A DNA stretch of 64,000 nucleotides from contig JAVZEV010000001.1 of the NCBI GenBank assembly GCA_038873195.1, positions 214,490 through 278,489 on the forward strand, read 5' to 3'. Position 1 is the first letter of the stretch, and each line of letters opens with the position of its first letter. The notes beneath the pieces are model-generated. The model did no database searches and had not been told where the DNA came from. It worked only from the letters and a program-made list of their open reading frames with translations. Source of the DNA: Candidatus Bathyarchaeia archaeon (lineage in GTDB: Archaea; Thermoproteota; Bathyarchaeia; Bathyarchaeales; Bathycorpusculaceae). Shown in pieces: positions 1,082 to 61,612 of the stretch. The translations under genes and the position numbers were made by a program.

Positions 1082-2137
1082 TTAAATGAAAGAAGTTGTT
1101 GATGGATTCACTACTTGATACCATGTTAATCTTTTTGTTTTCTTAAAATCTAACAAAGCTACTGTTAAAGCAAAGAAACCTAGAACTGCAGTTGCTGCCA
1201 AAATTAAGGGTGGGACTGAAGGAGAAAGGGGTGGAGCAGGAGGAGGTCCGCTTGGAATTTCTTTTCCGACAATCTCAATACTATAATTACCCTTATCATA
1301 TTCAAAGTATAGCGAAGTGTGCGTTGCGTTTTCACTAGCGGTATAAGATATGGGCGTTCCATTCAACTTAATCGTCCACTCTGATGGAATGCTACACATT
1401 AAGACCGATTTTGGAACATTAACTTGGCAGAACCAAGCGCTCTCGCTCATAATATTAAAGCTTATTTCTTTGTCGCCCATGCTGAAGCTTGTGCCGAATA
1501 CTCCCGAAACAGGCGATTGCTCAGCATTCTGTAACCCTTTTAGATTATTCACAATCTCCACCAAGTGATATGTTCCACTTAGAAAAACATTCAAGCTCTC
1601 TACAACCTCAAACTCGATATCTTCTAACTTTGAATTTAGCAATATTATATCAGTTAAGTGAAGCTCAGAAACACCTATTCCAATCGATTTAAAAGTCACG
1701 TACGCTAACTGTCCGCTTCCATTTACCCCTTGCACTGGTCCAAGAAGACAACAACCTCGGAAATACACTATGCCTAACATATTGTCCATGTCCTTATAAT
1801 GTTCCACGAAAATAGTCGGAGCCATGCTTCCATTCCTTAGGAAATCGCCTTCGTAAAAGCCTGTGCACTCCAAAATGTTCGGATTAAATGTGATGCCCGC
1901 CTGCCATGCATAAAGGTCTACTACGTTAGATATGTTAATGTTCACAGTAAGGCTCTCATTGGGCTCGGTTGTTTGAATTATTAATGGGTCAGTGAAAATT
2001 GTCGTATTTGACGTCTCTTCTGCAGTGACCGTGCTTGTATGCGTCTGCGAAGAAATAACTAGAAAAATGCAGAGAATTAAAGCACATAATTTTTCCATCA
2101 ACAGATTTGCCTTAACATGTCTTAACTTCTTTACCAT
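1082..2137 (-). CDS. Cohesin-domain surface protein, membrane anchored
   Basis: A 351-residue exported protein. An N-terminal hydrophobic signal segment (about residues 14-40) is followed by a cohesin-like beta-sandwich at about 45-190: NVVDLYAWQAGITFNPNILE, then EGDFLRNG, and VNGSGQLAYVTFKSIG-type strands that are the recognisable cohesin signature. A second small beta domain follows (about 205-300), then a proline-rich linker, one transmembrane helix (PPLILAATAVLGFFALTVAL) and a short basic cytoplasmic tail. Cohesins bind dockerin modules on other secreted proteins; archaeal examples are known. The gene ends 47 bp upstream of its probable regulator's coding end and shares a 14-bp upstream element with it. 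A dockerin protein lies at 58.8-61.6 kb. Cohesin assignment rests on motif reading. Confidence 0.8.
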   Translation of the reverse strand: MVKKLRHVKANLLMEKLCALILCIFLVISSQTHTSTVTAEETSNTTIFTDPLIIQTTEPNESLTVNINISNVVDLYAWQAGITFNPNILECTGFYEGDFLRNGSMAPTIFVEHYKDMDNMLGIVYFRGCCLLGPVQGVNGSGQLAYVTFKSIGIGVSELHLTDIILLNSKLEDIEFEVVESLNVFLSGTYHLVEIVNNLKGLQNAEQSPVSGVFGTSFSMGDKEISFNIMSESAWFCQVNVPKSVLMCSIPSEWTIKLNGTPISYTASENATHTSLYFEYDKGNYSIEIVGKEIPSGPPPAPPLSPSVPPLILAATAVLGFFALTVALLDFKKTKRLTWYQVVNPSTTSFI

Positions 2138-2184
2138 TTTTCTCTCATTCCTATTCTTTTTAAATTTCTTTCAGAAATTTTAAT

Positions 2185-2227
2185 CTACATATTCGAACGA
2201 TTTTTCGCGGTTATCGAACGGTCATTT
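2185..2227 (-). promoter_or_regulatory. Candidate operator upstream of cohesin gene (TCGAACGGTCATTT copy 1)
   Basis: The 14-bp sequence TCGAACGGTCATTT at 2214-2227 recurs exactly at 2744-2757. A second TTCGAACG occurs at 2192-2199. Both lie roughly 55-90 bp before the cohesin start, just upstream of an A/T-rich TATA-like stretch at about 2155-2172, although they overlap the 3' end of the regulator's coding region. Function as a binding site is inference from position and repetition. Confidence 0.45.
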
Positions 2228-2670
2228 TTGAATGAGGGCAAACTTAACCATGTTTTAACTGTGTCGTACCAGAAAATTCCTGAAGCCAAGACTCCTGGAA
2301 GTAAAGCAAGTATAACAGTTGGTGTGATGAGATTCCAGAATATTGACATGTAGAGTAGGCACATTATGGTGGTTATAGTTGCGTAAATAAGTGGTTTAGG
2401 TAACAGGAAACCATGAATGACAAAGAAGCGATTGATTAATTCAACTTTTGCGCCGTATTTGATTTTGTAGTTTCCATATAAATCTTTGGTCAGAATGTCT
2501 TCTTGCACCAATTTTTCAAGATGGTAATGGGCAGAGCTTGAGCTTGAAAAACCTAAGGCCCTCTGTATCTCTCTGACGCCGCAGCTTCGTCTTTTCTTGA
2601 GAAGATATAAATACACAAGTAGTGTGCTTTTTGAAATTTCTTCATACTTCTTTTCGCTATCAGAAGACAA
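2185..2670 (-). CDS. Winged-helix regulator with two C-terminal membrane helices
   Basis: A one-component regulator: an N-terminal winged helix-turn-helix (VREIQRALGFSSSSSAHYHL as recognition region) followed by two hydrophobic helices (around LIYATITTIMCLLYMSIF and ILALLPGVLASGIFWY), so DNA-binding and membrane insertion are in one chain. I place the start at TTG 2670 because AAGGTG lies 7 nt before it; an in-frame TTG at 2706 is also possible but falls inside a GAGGAGG run at the predicted transcription start. A TATA-like TTTTAATAAA lies near 2730-2739. It is paralogous to the gene at 58130-58588 (shared LLVYxYLL, GVREhQRALGFSS, HHLEKL-type blocks). It lies directly upstream of the cohesin gene, same strand. 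Confidence 0.85.
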   Translation of the reverse strand: MSSDSEKKYEEISKSTLLVYLYLLKKRRSCGVREIQRALGFSSSSSAHYHLEKLVQEDILTKDLYGNYKIKYGAKVELINRFFVIHGFLLPKPLIYATITTIMCLLYMSIFWNLITPTVILALLPGVLASGIFWYDTVKTWLSLPSFKNDRSITAKNRSNM

Positions 2671-2741
2671 TAGTGTACACCTTATTGTTGAACTGGGCCT
2701 CCTCAAAAATGTTATAGTGTATTAGTTTATTAAAACGATAC

Positions 2742-2770
2742 TTTCGAACGGTCATTTGAAATGTTCGAAC
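2742..2770 (-). promoter_or_regulatory. Candidate operator upstream of membrane-tethered regulator (copy 2)
   Basis: Second exact copy of TCGAACGGTCATTT (2744-2757), followed by GTTCGAAC at 2763-2770. It lies immediately before the TATA-like TTTTAATAAA of the regulator gene, the place where archaeal regulators often act on factor B/TBP recruitment. Matching sites before regulator and cohesin genes suggest common control. Confidence 0.45.
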
Positions 2771-46709: not shown

Positions 46710-46825
46710 ACTAGTCTTCTCCCTAACCCTCTATGTTCTATGGATTGGTTTAAATAATTTTCTGAATTTTAAAAGGTGAAAAATGGAAATTTTGTTGTTT
46801 TTTTGTCTTTCTGCCCGTTTCAGCC

Positions 46826-56971: not shown

Positions 56972-57700
56972 TTATGTCGCTTCTTTTTTAGTGGTTTGCT
57001 TTGAACCTTTCAACACGTTTTTCCACACTGGTATAATTCCTCTGTTAAACAGCAACACTATTCCAAGCGAAACAAAGCATAACGGCAAGACAACTATTAG
57101 CCCTTGAGCAATCCACAACATGCTTGCAGAAAGAATCTTGACGACAGGTTCTAACGAAGCGCCTACATTAACATCTGAAGGTTTCTTCTCTTTCAAGTTT
57201 ATTGTAATTGATGAAAACTCTTCTTCTGGCGTAATGTCTGACGCGTTTACTGTTTCAACGCTGATGTTTATGTAAGTTACTGTTCCATTCGAGTCAATTA
57301 TTGCTCTCGCGTTAAACGTGAAGGATGTCACATTCGCAGGAGGAATTTTGCAAAGCATCTGTCCACTCCACGCGTCGTTTTGGTAAGTCATGCGTAAGGA
57401 TTTTACGTAGCCATCTTTTTCGTCAGCAAGAACAGTAAGCCTATCAACCGCGTCTTCAAACGCGCCTTTTTCTAGTTCGCCCTCTATGGTTTCTGTAATC
57501 ACTTGATACTGTGTCTGCGATGTTGGAGAGACGCTCTGAATACTGCTTAAATCCTTCCCAGTGTTCGCACTGCGTAAGTACAATGACGCAGAATGCTGCT
57601 GTACTTGTCTCGTATTAAGATAAATAGTCAGAAGCAAAACAGACGTGCATAAGACTACTGCGGCAGCAATTTCCTTCTTTCTTATCAACATATTTAACAC
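56972..57700 (-). CDS. Membrane protein with DUF4349-like extracellular domain
   Basis: 242 residues. An N-terminal anchor (IAAAVVLCTSVLLLTIYLN), an extracellular domain with EDAVDRLTVLADEKDGYVKS, RMTYQNDAWSGQMLCKIPPA and SDITPEEEFSSITINLKEKK in the order of DUF4349 proteins, and a second helix (IAQGLIVVLPLCFVSLGIVLL) before a basic tail. DUF4349 proteins are surface-exposed, role unknown. Start TTG 57700 or ATG 57691. Confidence 0.8.
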   Translation of the reverse strand: MLNMLIRKKEIAAAVVLCTSVLLLTIYLNTRQVQQHSASLYLRSANTGKDLSSIQSVSPTSQTQYQVITETIEGELEKGAFEDAVDRLTVLADEKDGYVKSLRMTYQNDAWSGQMLCKIPPANVTSFTFNARAIIDSNGTVTYINISVETVNASDITPEEEFSSITINLKEKKPSDVNVGASLEPVVKILSASMLWIAQGLIVVLPLCFVSLGIVLLFNRGIIPVWKNVLKGSKQTTKKEAT

Positions 57701-57764
57701 CAGAATAACATAATAGGCGCCTAATTGCTATAATGCTACGTTTCAGAACATTATTGTACTAAAT

Positions 57765-58055
57765 CTAGTACGGTGGCCTAAACGTTGGGAGTTCGTGGTG
57801 AGGTGTTCTCCGCTTAAACAATATGTACACAATCAATGCTACTACAAAACTTATGACTAAGACTTCAACGTCTGCGTGAGAATATGTAGGCGTACTTGCA
57901 CGTATGCCTTCCAGTGCTCTCAACGATTTGGAAAATAAATATGCTTCTGCATCTGTATGTGTCGGTGTTATCTTTGCAAACGTAATTAGCGGAACCAACG
58001 TCATTAACAGTCCAAGAACCACTGCGGTTATTATGTAAAGCAGCACTTTTCTCAT
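57765..58055 (-). CDS. Small two-helix exported protein
   Basis: 96 residues: an N-terminal hydrophobic helix (VLLYIITAVVLGLLMTLVPL), a short extracellular stretch, a second helix (VEVLVISFVVALIVYILFKR) and a C-terminal tail HHELPTFRPPY. It lies 74 bp downstream of the regulator at 58130 on the same strand and may belong to that unit. No family recognised. Confidence 0.65.
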   Translation of the reverse strand: MRKVLLYIITAVVLGLLMTLVPLITFAKITPTHTDAEAYLFSKSLRALEGIRASTPTYSHADVEVLVISFVVALIVYILFKRRTPHHELPTFRPPY

Positions 58056-58129
58056 TCAAGAGGCCTCCACAAACAGTAATACATTCATAAGTCTTTTAAT
58101 TCTACATTTTAGAACAGCATGGTAAACGC

Positions 58130-58588
58130 TCATAACGGTCTAGCCCTCCACAACCGAACAGTCTCAACCCACAGAATCACAGTGGCGATTAAACCAAACA
58201 TTACGGTGTAAAAACTGGGGGTTATCTGGCTTATCACACAGATGGCTAAATAAGCAGCAAGCATAGTAGAAAAAAAGACAGAATAAAAGAGATATCTAGG
58301 CACAAGAAAGCGACCCATACGTGTGAAGAAACGCAAAATTCCCACTTTCACCTCTTCTTCTAACACATATTCGCCTGTTCCTTTTTTGTTAACAAGCCCT
58401 AACTCTTGCAGTTTCTCAAGATGATGCACTGCTATGCTGGGACTAGAAAAGCCTAAAGCACGCTGAACCTCCCGAACGCCAACCATGTGGTTAGGCTGCT
58501 GCAGCAGATACCAGTAAACAAGAAGAGTTTTACCTTTCAATTCAGACTCCAAGAACGCCAAATTAAATTCATGTGGAGCCTTTGACAT
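58130..58588 (-). CDS. Winged-helix regulator with two C-terminal membrane helices (paralogue)
   Basis: 152 residues from ATG 58588. Winged helix (TLLVYWYLLQQPNHMVGVRE, VQRALGFSSPSIAVHHLEKL) at about 18-75 and two transmembrane helices at 103-122 and 127-147 (AAYLAICVISQITPSF-type and IATVILWVETVRL). An ATG at 58639 in frame would include the TATA-like TTTTAAATACA (about 58620-58630), so 58588 is preferred. Paralogue of the regulator at 2185-2670. It is divergent from the dockerin protein (58775), sharing a 190-bp control region. Confidence 0.87.
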   Translation of the reverse strand: MSKAPHEFNLAFLESELKGKTLLVYWYLLQQPNHMVGVREVQRALGFSSPSIAVHHLEKLQELGLVNKKGTGEYVLEEEVKVGILRFFTRMGRFLVPRYLFYSVFFSTMLAAYLAICVISQITPSFYTVMFGLIATVILWVETVRLWRARPL

Positions 58589-58774
58589 TAAGCATCGCCT
58601 ATCAGCATTAATAAAATATGTATTTAAAAGCCTAATCAAGGCGCCCCTTGAGTGGTTCTGAATGCTGTACTAATGATTGGTATAAAATAGATTAAACGTA
58701 TTTATCAATAGAATAATTGAGGAGTAGCATTAATTTAACCGATTCGCTCATTAAAATGATAGGAGAGAGGGGGT
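58589..58774. promoter_or_regulatory. Divergent control region between regulator and dockerin gene
   Basis: About 186 bp. On the minus strand a TATA-like TTTTAAATACA serves the regulator; on the plus strand GGAGAGAGGGGGT at 58761-58773 is a strong ribosome-binding site for the 945-residue protein. The TCGAACGGTCATTT element seen in the cohesin module is not present here. Confidence 0.45.
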
Positions 58775-61612
58775 ATGTTTAACAAAATATCTTCAGTTAT
58801 TTTGTGCATATTATTATTCACCGGCATTTTTGTTATGGCGACAAATTTTCATTCAGTAATAGCATGGATTGGAACTGTTTACATTAGGGCAGATGGCGCT
58901 ATAGAACCGGCTGATGCACCAATATTACGTGACGGAGATGTCTATATCCTAATTGGCAATATCACTAGCAATGCCGACGGAATTGTTATAGAAAGAGACG
59001 ACATGAAGTTAGACGGGGCTGGTTGCATAGTTCAAGGAAACGGTGAAGTCCATAAAGCAGGAGTGCTCCTTGTTGCTAGACACAACGTAACAATAACAAA
59101 CATGGAGATCACGAAATTCTATTATGGTATCCGACTTGACATTTGCCAAAACTGCAGCATCATTGGAAACAACCTACATCAAACAATGCTTTATGGCAAA
59201 GCTAACATTGACCTTGTTGATTCGTCCTACAACACTATAGTTGGAAACAACCTAACAGATAATTGGATAGGCATCGGACTTCATGCGTCAAACTATAATG
59301 TTATTCGCGAAAACAATGTAACAAAACACTCCGCGGGCATTTATTTACAGTCTTCTTATAACAATTCAATTCACCACAACAGCTTTTTATTCAATGATAA
59401 CCAAGTCGATATTTACGACTCAGCAAATGCTTGGGACGATAATTACCCATCCGGCGGCAACTTGTGGAGTGATTATTGGGGCGTGGATTCGTACAGTGGT
59501 GTTTATCAAAACGAGACAAGAAGCGATGGAATAGGCGACACGCCACGCATAATAGACGAAAACAACATAGACCGCTATCCTTTGGTTTATCCTCGAGACC
59601 CATGCGAACAGCAAATAGTCTCTCTTGTTAACGGTTCAAGAGCCTACAACCACGATTTAGAGTTAGAGAACATGGCACTTGAACATTATGCCTTCCGTTC
59701 AGGCGGGTCTGCTGGTGCAAACGAAACTGTATACTGGATTAAAGAAAAATTCGAAAGCTTTGGATTAGAAGCATGGCTTGAACCTTTTGAATTTACAACT
59801 TGGGACGTGACGAGTAAGCCTTCTCTCGTGATTGATGATGATGGAAATCCAAATACAACTTATGACCAAACTGTTCTTAGTTCTTTTCAATGCGAACATT
59901 ACAGTTGGCCAACTTCTCCAAATGGAGCCTTTGCTGATCTTGTGATTTTACCTCTGCCTGAGGCAGCAAGTTATTTTGAAATAGGTGTGAATCCAATTAA
60001 CACAACCGCATGGAACGCTATAAACACCACAGGGAAGATAGTATTGATTGGAAGAGAAGTTCGTTGGAGTTCTAGTTGGCATAATACATACAGAAATAAG
60101 TTGACGGCGCAACCGCCAGCCGCAATCGTTCACACGTGGTGGTATGAATGGATGTCATTCACACCTCCCATGTACAGTTCTGCCGGCGGACGCCCGATAA
60201 GCTCCTTTGGAGACTATTATTGGGATTTGGGCATTCCTGTAGGTTCTGTAAACTATGAAGATGGCTTATGGATTCGAAATAGAGAAAGTGGCATAGATGT
60301 CTCTGCGAACGTTTCCATCAATTCAGTTATTGGTATGGGCACTCATTATAATGTTGTTGGAAGAATTAAAGGCTACATAGACCCGGATAAAATGATAATT
60401 ATTTCCGGTCACTATGACACTGTTATGTGTGCGGGCTTCTGTGATAACGGTGCGGGAACTGCGGGGGTAATAGAGCTTGCAAAAGTTTTTGCTGATGCTG
60501 TTGCAAGCGGCGTCTATAAACCCGCATATACTCTTCTGTTTGTAGCTTTTGCAAGTGAGGAGCTTTATCTGGTAGGCTCGATAAACTATGTGAAACAGCA
60601 CAAAAGCGACATGGCAAATATTAAGGCAGTTATTAATTTGGATTGCATAGGTAGTGATGAGTTTCGAGTTACCGAAACTGAGCCGGTGAACGGTTTTGAT
60701 TTGGACCAAGTTGTGTTGGAAGCTGCTTTGGAACTTGGTGTATCTGGTGAATTGGAATCGCCGGGTGGTTCCGATCAGGAGACCTTTAGAAACCCATTGT
60801 GGGCCAACAGCATTTATTATCAATATTGGGGTTTAGATGCAAACATTTCTGATGCGACACCAATTCCGTCCAGTGTCTTGCTGATTTCATTTCCTCTTCT
60901 CTATAATGACGCTTGGTACATGGGCAGCCCCGGCTGGATTCACACAGAATATGACAATTCAACTTCAACGTTGACACTAAACTGGGTTGAAGCTGTGGAT
61001 CTTGAAAAGCACATTCAAATAGCCGCGCTTACAACAGTACGTATTTCACCTAATGTTCCTCCATTGCCTCGTAACATCGCCTTAACAAGCGTTAAACCTA
61101 GTAAAACTGTTTCTGGGCAATCCTTCTTGATGCAAATTAAAGTAACGATAGAGAATCAAGGAGGATACATAGAATATGTAAATGTCACAGCGTATGCAAA
61201 CGCTACAGTTATCGCGACACTCGTGAATATTGTTGTCGCTAATGGAACCTCAGTTACAGTTGCTATCACATGGAACACTACAGAATTTGAAAAAGGCAAT
61301 TACACCATACGGGCTTACGCTTGGCCTTTTCCAGACGAAACCTCCACAACAGACAATAACTGCACATTCAATGGCTTTGTTTTAATAACGCTTCCTGGCG
61401 ATGTTGATGGTGATTTTAAAGTGAAGATGGATGATATAGTGCTTATTGTTGGTGCTTTCGGGTCAACGCTTAGAGCAGACGGATGGTACTGGCACACGCC
61501 ACCCTGCATACTATGTCCCCATAATCCAAACTACGACGTAGACGGAAACAGCAAAGTAGACATGGGCGACATAATTATTGCATGTGATAACTTCGGAAAA
61601 ACTTATCTATGA
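58775..61612 (+). CDS. Secreted NosD-repeat / M28 peptidase / CARDB / dockerin protein
   Basis: 945 residues, exported (signal peptide VILCILLFTGIFVMATNFHS, residues 10-29). Residues 40-280 are a right-handed beta-helix of the NosD/CASH type (NVTITNMEITKFYYGIRLDI, NCSIIGNNLHQ, NTIVGNNLTDNWIGIGLHAS). Residues about 285-720 are an M28 zinc aminopeptidase with a PA insert: metal ligands in SGHYDTVMC, CDNGAGTAGVIEL, FVAFASEELYLVGS and NLDCIGSDE, and histidine in GWIHTEYDN. A CARDB-type Ig domain covers 755-860. The end is a dockerin with two EF-hand-like loops (DVDGDFKVKMDD and DVDGNSKVDMGD). Likely digests peptides on or off the cell while docked on a cohesin, such as that at 1082-2137. Confidence 0.92.
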   Translation: MFNKISSVILCILLFTGIFVMATNFHSVIAWIGTVYIRADGAIEPADAPILRDGDVYILIGNITSNADGIVIERDDMKLDGAGCIVQGNGEVHKAGVLLVARHNVTITNMEITKFYYGIRLDICQNCSIIGNNLHQTMLYGKANIDLVDSSYNTIVGNNLTDNWIGIGLHASNYNVIRENNVTKHSAGIYLQSSYNNSIHHNSFLFNDNQVDIYDSANAWDDNYPSGGNLWSDYWGVDSYSGVYQNETRSDGIGDTPRIIDENNIDRYPLVYPRDPCEQQIVSLVNGSRAYNHDLELENMALEHYAFRSGGSAGANETVYWIKEKFESFGLEAWLEPFEFTTWDVTSKPSLVIDDDGNPNTTYDQTVLSSFQCEHYSWPTSPNGAFADLVILPLPEAASYFEIGVNPINTTAWNAINTTGKIVLIGREVRWSSSWHNTYRNKLTAQPPAAIVHTWWYEWMSFTPPMYSSAGGRPISSFGDYYWDLGIPVGSVNYEDGLWIRNRESGIDVSANVSINSVIGMGTHYNVVGRIKGYIDPDKMIIISGHYDTVMCAGFCDNGAGTAGVIELAKVFADAVASGVYKPAYTLLFVAFASEELYLVGSINYVKQHKSDMANIKAVINLDCIGSDEFRVTETEPVNGFDLDQVVLEAALELGVSGELESPGGSDQETFRNPLWANSIYYQYWGLDANISDATPIPSSVLLISFPLLYNDAWYMGSPGWIHTEYDNSTSTLTLNWVEAVDLEKHIQIAALTTVRISPNVPPLPRNIALTSVKPSKTVSGQSFLMQIKVTIENQGGYIEYVNVTAYANATVIATLVNIVVANGTSVTVAITWNTTEFEKGNYTIRAYAWPFPDETSTTDNNCTFNGFVLITLPGDVDGDFKVKMDDIVLIVGAFGSTLRADGWYWHTPPCILCPHNPNYDVDGNSKVDMGDIIIACDNFGKTYL

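Follow-up and report, generated by a model that had tools for sequence, protein, structure and literature searches.

Cohesin and dockerin genes beside related regulators

The window, the whole stretch of DNA analysed here, comprises 64,000 nucleotides of a 1.63-Mb genome in two contigs (G000:C1:214490-278489). It contains a cohesin gene and a dockerin gene, each adjoined by one of two related regulator genes, an arrangement that was pointed out in an initial annotation and that is confirmed as a whole by our analysis.

The cohesin gene (1082-2137, minus strand) encodes a surface protein of 351 residues, with an N-terminal hydrophobic signal, a cohesin domain (residues ~45-174), a second domain (~204-294), a proline-rich linker and a C-terminal transmembrane (TM) segment; hydropathy analysis places TM segments at residues 12 and 304. 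The protein passes the curated Pfam cut-off for cohesins (PF00963, 25.4 bits, cut-off 24.1). A family profile of 25 domains, recruited by phmmer with the cohesin domain of the window itself, had 34 matches among PDB sequences at E ≤ 0.1, chiefly to cellulosomal cohesins. The top match was a cohesin of a cellulosomal scaffoldin (3l8q, 3.7e-15), an entry labelled COHESIN (2xdh) followed at 1.7e-4, and the few matches under other names (NagJ) ranked last. The domain thus scores inside the cohesins in both comparisons, as the initial annotation had assumed. Outside the genus, the closest homologue is the cohesin protein of locus L166 (44%, see below), and residues ~211-300 have homologous stretches in many other proteins of related genomes. 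We propose that this protein is a putative docking site for dockerins.

The dockerin gene (58775-61612, plus strand) encodes a protein of 945 residues, in which Pfam recognizes NosD β-helix, M28 peptidase and CARDB regions, the first two in agreement with the initial annotation. The assignment of the dockerin itself (~61397-61603, plus strand) stands on two tandem calcium-binding EF-hand loops of the form DxDx(D/N)...D, separated by a longer insert, and on a profile built from dockerins of this genome, which recovers the two halves (27.8 and 11.9 bits). Scanned on its own, the tail stays under the cut-off of the Pfam profile for type I dockerins (PF00404; 16.6 bits, cut-off 22.9).

Both regulators are encoded on the minus strand. 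The first (2185-2670, 161 residues) precedes the cohesin gene in the same direction with a gap of 47 bp, and the second (58130-58588, 152 residues) is divergent from the dockerin gene. Their open frames reach to 2706 and 58639, the starts given in the ORF list, where 2670 and 58588 are the likelier starts; gene starts throughout are the first ATG, GTG or TTG. The two proteins are paralogous, as had been claimed (41% identity over 138 residues, E = 6e-27), and an AlphaFold2 model of regulator 2185 (mean pLDDT 82) bears out the proposed architecture of a winged helix followed by two C-terminal membrane helices. In this model, the N-terminal winged-helix part joins almost directly onto a TM helix (residues 92-110), which is connected by a short turn to a second helix (117-143), followed by a third (145-159). 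Searches for known relatives yielded only weak matches to LexA, ArsR and IclR helix-turn-helix (HTH) families in Pfam, all of them under the cut-off, and a best Foldseek match at E 0.018; a regulator profile had no match among PDB sequences at E ≤ 0.01.

Orthologues of regulator 58130 are found in many genera with 60-90% identity. Regulator 2185 sits on a long branch, and no sister group could be assigned to it with support. Its last ~16 residues (2185-2230) form a tail that is encoded by an operator-like repeat; the tail is shared with the orthologue in G001, a second genome of the same genus, and absent from the other rows of our regulator alignment (A4).

Downstream of regulator 58130 follow a small protein with two TM helices (57765-58055, minus strand, 96 residues), whose homologue usually follows regulators of this type, and, as third gene of the operon, a DUF4349 membrane or surface protein (56972-57700, minus strand, 242 residues; PF14257 above cut-off).

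Genome context

The two modules lie 56 kb apart in the window, as had been noted, and about 16 kb apart in G001, where both are present (regulators 97.5% and 91% identical, cohesin protein 88%, dockerin protein 91%). Further, G001 joins the counterpart of the window's 62219 gene to that of its 10917 gene, and so do other genera (e.g. L056, L057, L060-L064, L067). From this spacing and shared gene order we conclude that the 56-kb separation is not ancestral and results from a local rearrangement of the window. The gene order around orthologues of regulator 58130 is kept in many genera, and the dockerin enzyme is found upstream of them only in the genus of the window.

Within the window, the cohesin and the dockerin gene are indeed the only ones of their kind, as the initial annotation had it. 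This uniqueness does not extend to the genome, in which profile searches and the stretches examined revealed at least 10 cohesin and at least 11 dockerin ORFs. The window and three further clusters (L101-L103) together contain 10 cohesin and 8 dockerin ORFs, with both domains in 4 ORFs; two further dockerin ORFs are located at C1:847-850 kb and another, above the Pfam cut-off, at C1:797532. In L102 (2112-13546, G000:C1:80.1-91.5 kb), a run of seven co-directional cohesin and dockerin genes has the appearance of a small archaeal scaffold cluster. One of its proteins combines three cohesins with a dockerin (L102 5863-7872), where the cohesin protein of the window has a single cohesin, and four of its cohesin proteins have a TM segment at the C-terminus. 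One of the ORFs near 847 kb (L321 5105-6283, G000:C1:847.1-848.3 kb) ends in a dockerin tail that is near-identical to the tail of the 58775 protein and thereby points to recent copying or gene conversion.

The regulator family and its partner genes

A profile search detected regulator homologues in 55 of 60 related genomes, and the family is present in 113 of 200 genomes sampled across the phylum Thermoproteota, with up to 10 members per genome. The nearest regulator loci in named genomes belong to Candidatus Bathyarchaeota/Bathyarchaeia, where the small two-TM gene also comes first. We assembled a set of 120 regulator ORFs from 117 fetched loci and the window, omitting the near-identical G056 and some fragments.

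For 46 of 116 regulators, the immediate downstream neighbor is co-directional and of surface type, against 36 of 736 control genes at the same loci (Fisher p = 1.4e-22, the loci being related and thus not 116 independent events). The surface and TM classes used here follow a simple hydropathy rule, which errs in places: it assigns a tetrapyrrole methylase (L166 5053-5868) to the surface type and L057 9062-10879 to the soluble class. Of the surface partners in a co-directional run with the regulator, 37 of 60 fall into a single homology cluster, and all four members of it that we scanned are PF09826 β-propellers (E 1.2e-150 or better). The module most often takes the form of a regulator followed by such a β-propeller (L051 6957-9337 and relatives), and most regulators of this clade bear TGTTCTAAAAATTGGACTTATAAG or a close variant in their own promoter (26 sites used). 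Partners unrelated to the propeller cluster comprise cohesin, DUF4349, laminin-G-like, PQQ propeller and SBP_bac_5 proteins and one unassigned group. In the 58130-type clade, the small two-TM protein comes first, and several distant genomes of the phylum have a TM gene of similar size. This variety is already evident in the genome of the window, where three regulators lead to a β-propeller (C1:816890, L051), to the small protein 57765 and the DUF4349 protein (regulator 58130) and to the cohesin protein (regulator 2185), respectively.

The initial annotation had seen in the two regulators a related pair flanking complementary cohesin and dockerin partners, and had named random placement of the family beside unrelated genes as the observation that would speak against this. 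Cohesin and dockerin ORFs are enriched within two genes of a regulator when all genes are counted (8/438, against 4/959 further off, p = 0.012). Among surface-type genes, their share is 6/102 near and 4/63 far from regulators, i.e. without an excess near regulators. Since they are thus found near regulators only at the share that is general to surface genes, and since most partners are other surface proteins, β-propellers above all, we rejected the notion of a dedicated cohesin/dockerin regulator family. The placement is nevertheless not random, as it favors genes of surface proteins.

A promoter element upstream of partner genes

Upstream of the partner genes, and sometimes of a divergent surface gene, we found an element of 24 bp, consisting of a GTNCNAA half-site, the trinucleotide TAG and a TATA box. 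Its matrix was trained on 90 regulator-partner gaps outside G000 and G001, of which 55 were retained. A dyad that may serve as an operator upstream of the element was read by eye only.

In leave-one-out scoring, 55 of the 90 gaps reached a score of at least 12, in comparison to 4 of 449 control gaps (both outside the window's genus), although these numbers must be read with the origin of the matrix in mind: its seed was a consensus read by eye in data that included the window, for which leave-one-out scoring and the hold-out of the genus are only a partial remedy. The remaining 35 gaps lack the element. Outside the window's genus, its occurrence also depends on the type and orientation of the neighboring gene. 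Surface-type genes adjacent to a regulator in an orientation that it could control (downstream and co-directional, or upstream and divergent) have it in 35 of 49 cases, adjacent surface-type genes in other orientations in 2 of 20 and surface-type genes at least four genes away in 4 of 49; soluble genes never have it, be they adjacent (0/37) or distant (0/493). Among divergent genes, which were absent from the training set, the element lies upstream of 4 of 7 surface-type genes and of 2 of 34 others (p = 0.0055 for divergent against far surface genes).

In the window, the four highest-scoring matches on both strands precede exactly the four genes that flank the two regulators. They lie between regulator 58130 and the small protein (58093-58116, minus strand, 30.9 bits), upstream of the dockerin gene (58666-58689, plus strand, 21.6 bits), upstream of the DUF4349 gene (57727-57750, minus strand, 16.9 bits) and, as the weakest of the four, upstream of the cohesin gene (2176-2199, minus strand, 13.4 bits). 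Forty Markov-shuffled windows had on average 0.275 matches with scores of at least 13.3, compared to the 4 observed. A weaker match, of rank 11, is located in front of regulator 2185 itself (2727-2750, minus strand, 6.4 bits). The fifth-best match (46734-46757, plus strand, 12.6) has no gene on its strand and may be due to chance or to an unannotated small gene. In G001, the cohesin site has the same score (L053 8501) and the dockerin site scores 27.8, differing at three positions from that of the window, with wider divergence in the surrounding intergenic region; as both genomes belong to one genus, their agreement is not independent.

On the cohesin side, the boxes read GTTCGAA, and the longer pattern TTCGA-N14-CGTTCGAA has one copy in the last codons of regulator 2185 just before the cohesin gene (2192-2218, minus strand) and another in the promoter region of the regulator (2743-2769, minus strand). 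These are the only two exact copies in the whole genome, and both are also present in G001. A looser search with one mismatch gave 8 strand matches, equal in practice to the 7 obtained with a reversed control, and we therefore rejected a genome-wide regulon of regulator 2185 defined by this pattern. The dockerin-side element has the box GTACTAA, and given this difference, the two regulators may well not control each other's targets.

Beyond the genus, the best evidence that a cohesin and a dockerin gene can be controlled jointly by such regulators comes from L166 (G015:C109). There, a regulator of the family is divergent from a dockerin gene, which is followed by a cohesin gene; both carry the element (27.5 and 26.6, respectively), and the stretches preceding them are near-identical over about 40 bp. 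In L152, a second dockerin gene is divergent from a regulator and has the element with a score of 13.3. In L057 and L125, where a dockerin ORF is found within two genes of a regulator (in L057 also a cohesin ORF), the element is absent. The occurrence of the element upstream of both the cohesin and the dockerin gene of the window, together with its recurrence in the sister species and in L166, supports that part of the initial annotation which held these surface genes to be signal-controlled.

Proposed membrane-tethered control of neighboring surface genes

Taken together, the two regulators and the promoter signal shared with their neighboring genes suggest that a type of switch for surface proteins is widespread. 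The reading we prefer, with a probability of roughly two in three, is that the regulators form a family of membrane-tethered one-component proteins, each of which would control a small local set of membrane or surface genes. The winged helix would be located at the inner face of the membrane, followed by the two membrane helices with almost no loop on the outside, and the regulator, while held by the membrane, would bind the half-sites abutting the TATA box in the promoters of its neighbors. For regulator 58130, the predicted set comprises the small membrane protein, the DUF4349 protein and the dockerin enzyme; for regulator 2185, it would be the cohesin protein and, more weakly, the regulator itself, so that the cohesin protein would display a docking site on the cell under control of the regulator. 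Since the regulators have no outside domain, the signal is likely sensed in the membrane or through a partner, and would most likely be the state of the membrane or the membrane and surface proteins encoded alongside. By analogy with the archaeal regulator ArnR (see below), we weakly favor activation over repression.

The initial annotation went further and took the window's cohesin protein and dockerin enzyme for mutual partners in a split docking system, switched together by the two regulators. The element of the family does precede both genes, the modules are only 16 kb apart in G001, and L166 combines a regulator with dockerin and cohesin genes that have almost the same element. We nonetheless consider this model quite unlikely, and the mutual pairing is not borne out. 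With at least 10 cohesin and at least 11 dockerin ORFs, including the cluster with the three-cohesin-plus-dockerin protein, the genome has other candidate partners; a near-identical dockerin tail is found on another of its proteins (L321); and the difference between the GTTCGAA and GTACTAA boxes argues against joint switching. Homologues of the M28-dockerin protein exist in G012 (61% over residues 275-760, with no dockerin tail seen) and G015 (52% over 278-943), and neither has a family regulator or the element nearby, which led us to reject a conserved pair of regulator and M28-dockerin enzyme; instead, the enzyme seems to have come under the element within the window's genus. The other 12 cohesin and dockerin ORFs of clusters L101-L103, the scaffold cluster in L102 included, have no element scoring 6 or more, and we therefore also rejected a regulon spanning the cohesin and dockerin clusters of the genome.

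This last observation also bears on a different explanation of the element, namely that it marks a promoter class of surface genes read by another factor, such as a TFB variant, with the regulators being adjacent for some other reason. That the element contains a TATA box and precedes 4 of 49 surface-type genes at a distance of four or more genes from a regulator would fit such a class. Neither its absence from the 12 cohesin and dockerin ORFs just mentioned nor its dependence on orientation next to regulators (35/49 against 2/20) is expected from it, and we regard this explanation as unlikely. Finally, cohesin and dockerin genes might adjoin members of a common regulator family by mere chance, without any functional link. 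A single genome may contain up to 10 regulators of this family, and cohesin and dockerin genes are no commoner among near than among far surface genes. As each of the four genes flanking the regulators is preceded by one of the window's four best matches and the element recurs in L166 and L152, chance is already disfavored and appears highly improbable.

Comparison with known systems

Membrane-bound one-component regulators are known from Sulfolobus acidocaldarius, where ArnR and ArnR1 are involved in the control of cell-surface structures (PMC6396743). They resemble our regulators by description in having an N-terminal HTH domain and two C-terminal TM helices, and target binding by ArnR requires both members of a pair of TCGA-type boxes, which lie upstream of the TATA box. 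They differ in that the HTH domain and the TM helices of ArnR are separated by HAMP-like and sensor regions, of which our model contains hardly anything, and in that ArnR targets archaellum and pili, whereas the predicted targets here are neighboring surface proteins. More generally, the combination of a DNA-binding domain and at least one TM region in a single chain, as seen in our model, places the regulators among the transmembrane transcription regulators (TTRs), a known class that is common in archaea (PMC10269533). The portion of the TTR survey we had access to makes no mention of Bathyarchae-, cohesin, dockerin or propeller and gives no rule for operators or partners, whereas the regulators described here come with an element and a partner pattern.

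Archaeal proteins with cohesin and dockerin domains have been described in ANME, including surface proteins and scaffoldin-like proteins that combine a dockerin with several cohesins, similar to those found here, and their role is described as unclear (PMC9012536). The part of this account that we consulted contains nothing on regulation; here, two such genes have a regulator-linked promoter element. In the cellulosome of Clostridium thermocellum, the expression of cohesin and dockerin proteins is also tuned by membrane-spanning sensors (SigI/RsgI). This is an analogy only, SigI/RsgI being a bacterial sigma factor with its anti-sigma factor, in contrast to the one-piece predicted DNA-binding proteins described here.

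Our literature searches, in which subscription papers and preprints are poorly covered, found no account of the regulator family, the element or the link to cohesins, which is weak evidence for their novelty. They also returned nothing on PF09826 in connection with β-propellers, and the wider propeller literature was of no use. The ways in which Bathyarchaeia and other uncultured archaea sense their environment and change their surface are little known. The regulator family, together with its readable promoter element, would offer a direct and testable link from a membrane regulator to named surface proteins, which can be sought by sequence in culturable relatives.

On a larger scale, one may tentatively imagine phylum-wide surface switches in the Thermoproteota, a reading we hold at somewhat less than even odds. 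Each regulator would then have its own operator-marked and exchangeable set of surface proteins (β-propellers, DUF4349 proteins, lectin-like domains, cohesins, dockerin enzymes), with new ones recruited by relocation. If so, a lineage could bring surface proteins, among them a cohesin with its dockerin cargo as in L166, under control from the membrane through relocation of their genes to the side of a regulator.

One clade of regulators departs from the standard pattern. In L157, L158, L160 and L161, the regulators have in common a surface partner of 380-400 residues, which gave no Pfam match at 0.1 for L158 and only weak ones for L160. The gaps in this clade lack the standard element and contain a different repeated pattern, TTTAAAA, so that the clade seems to use another signal.
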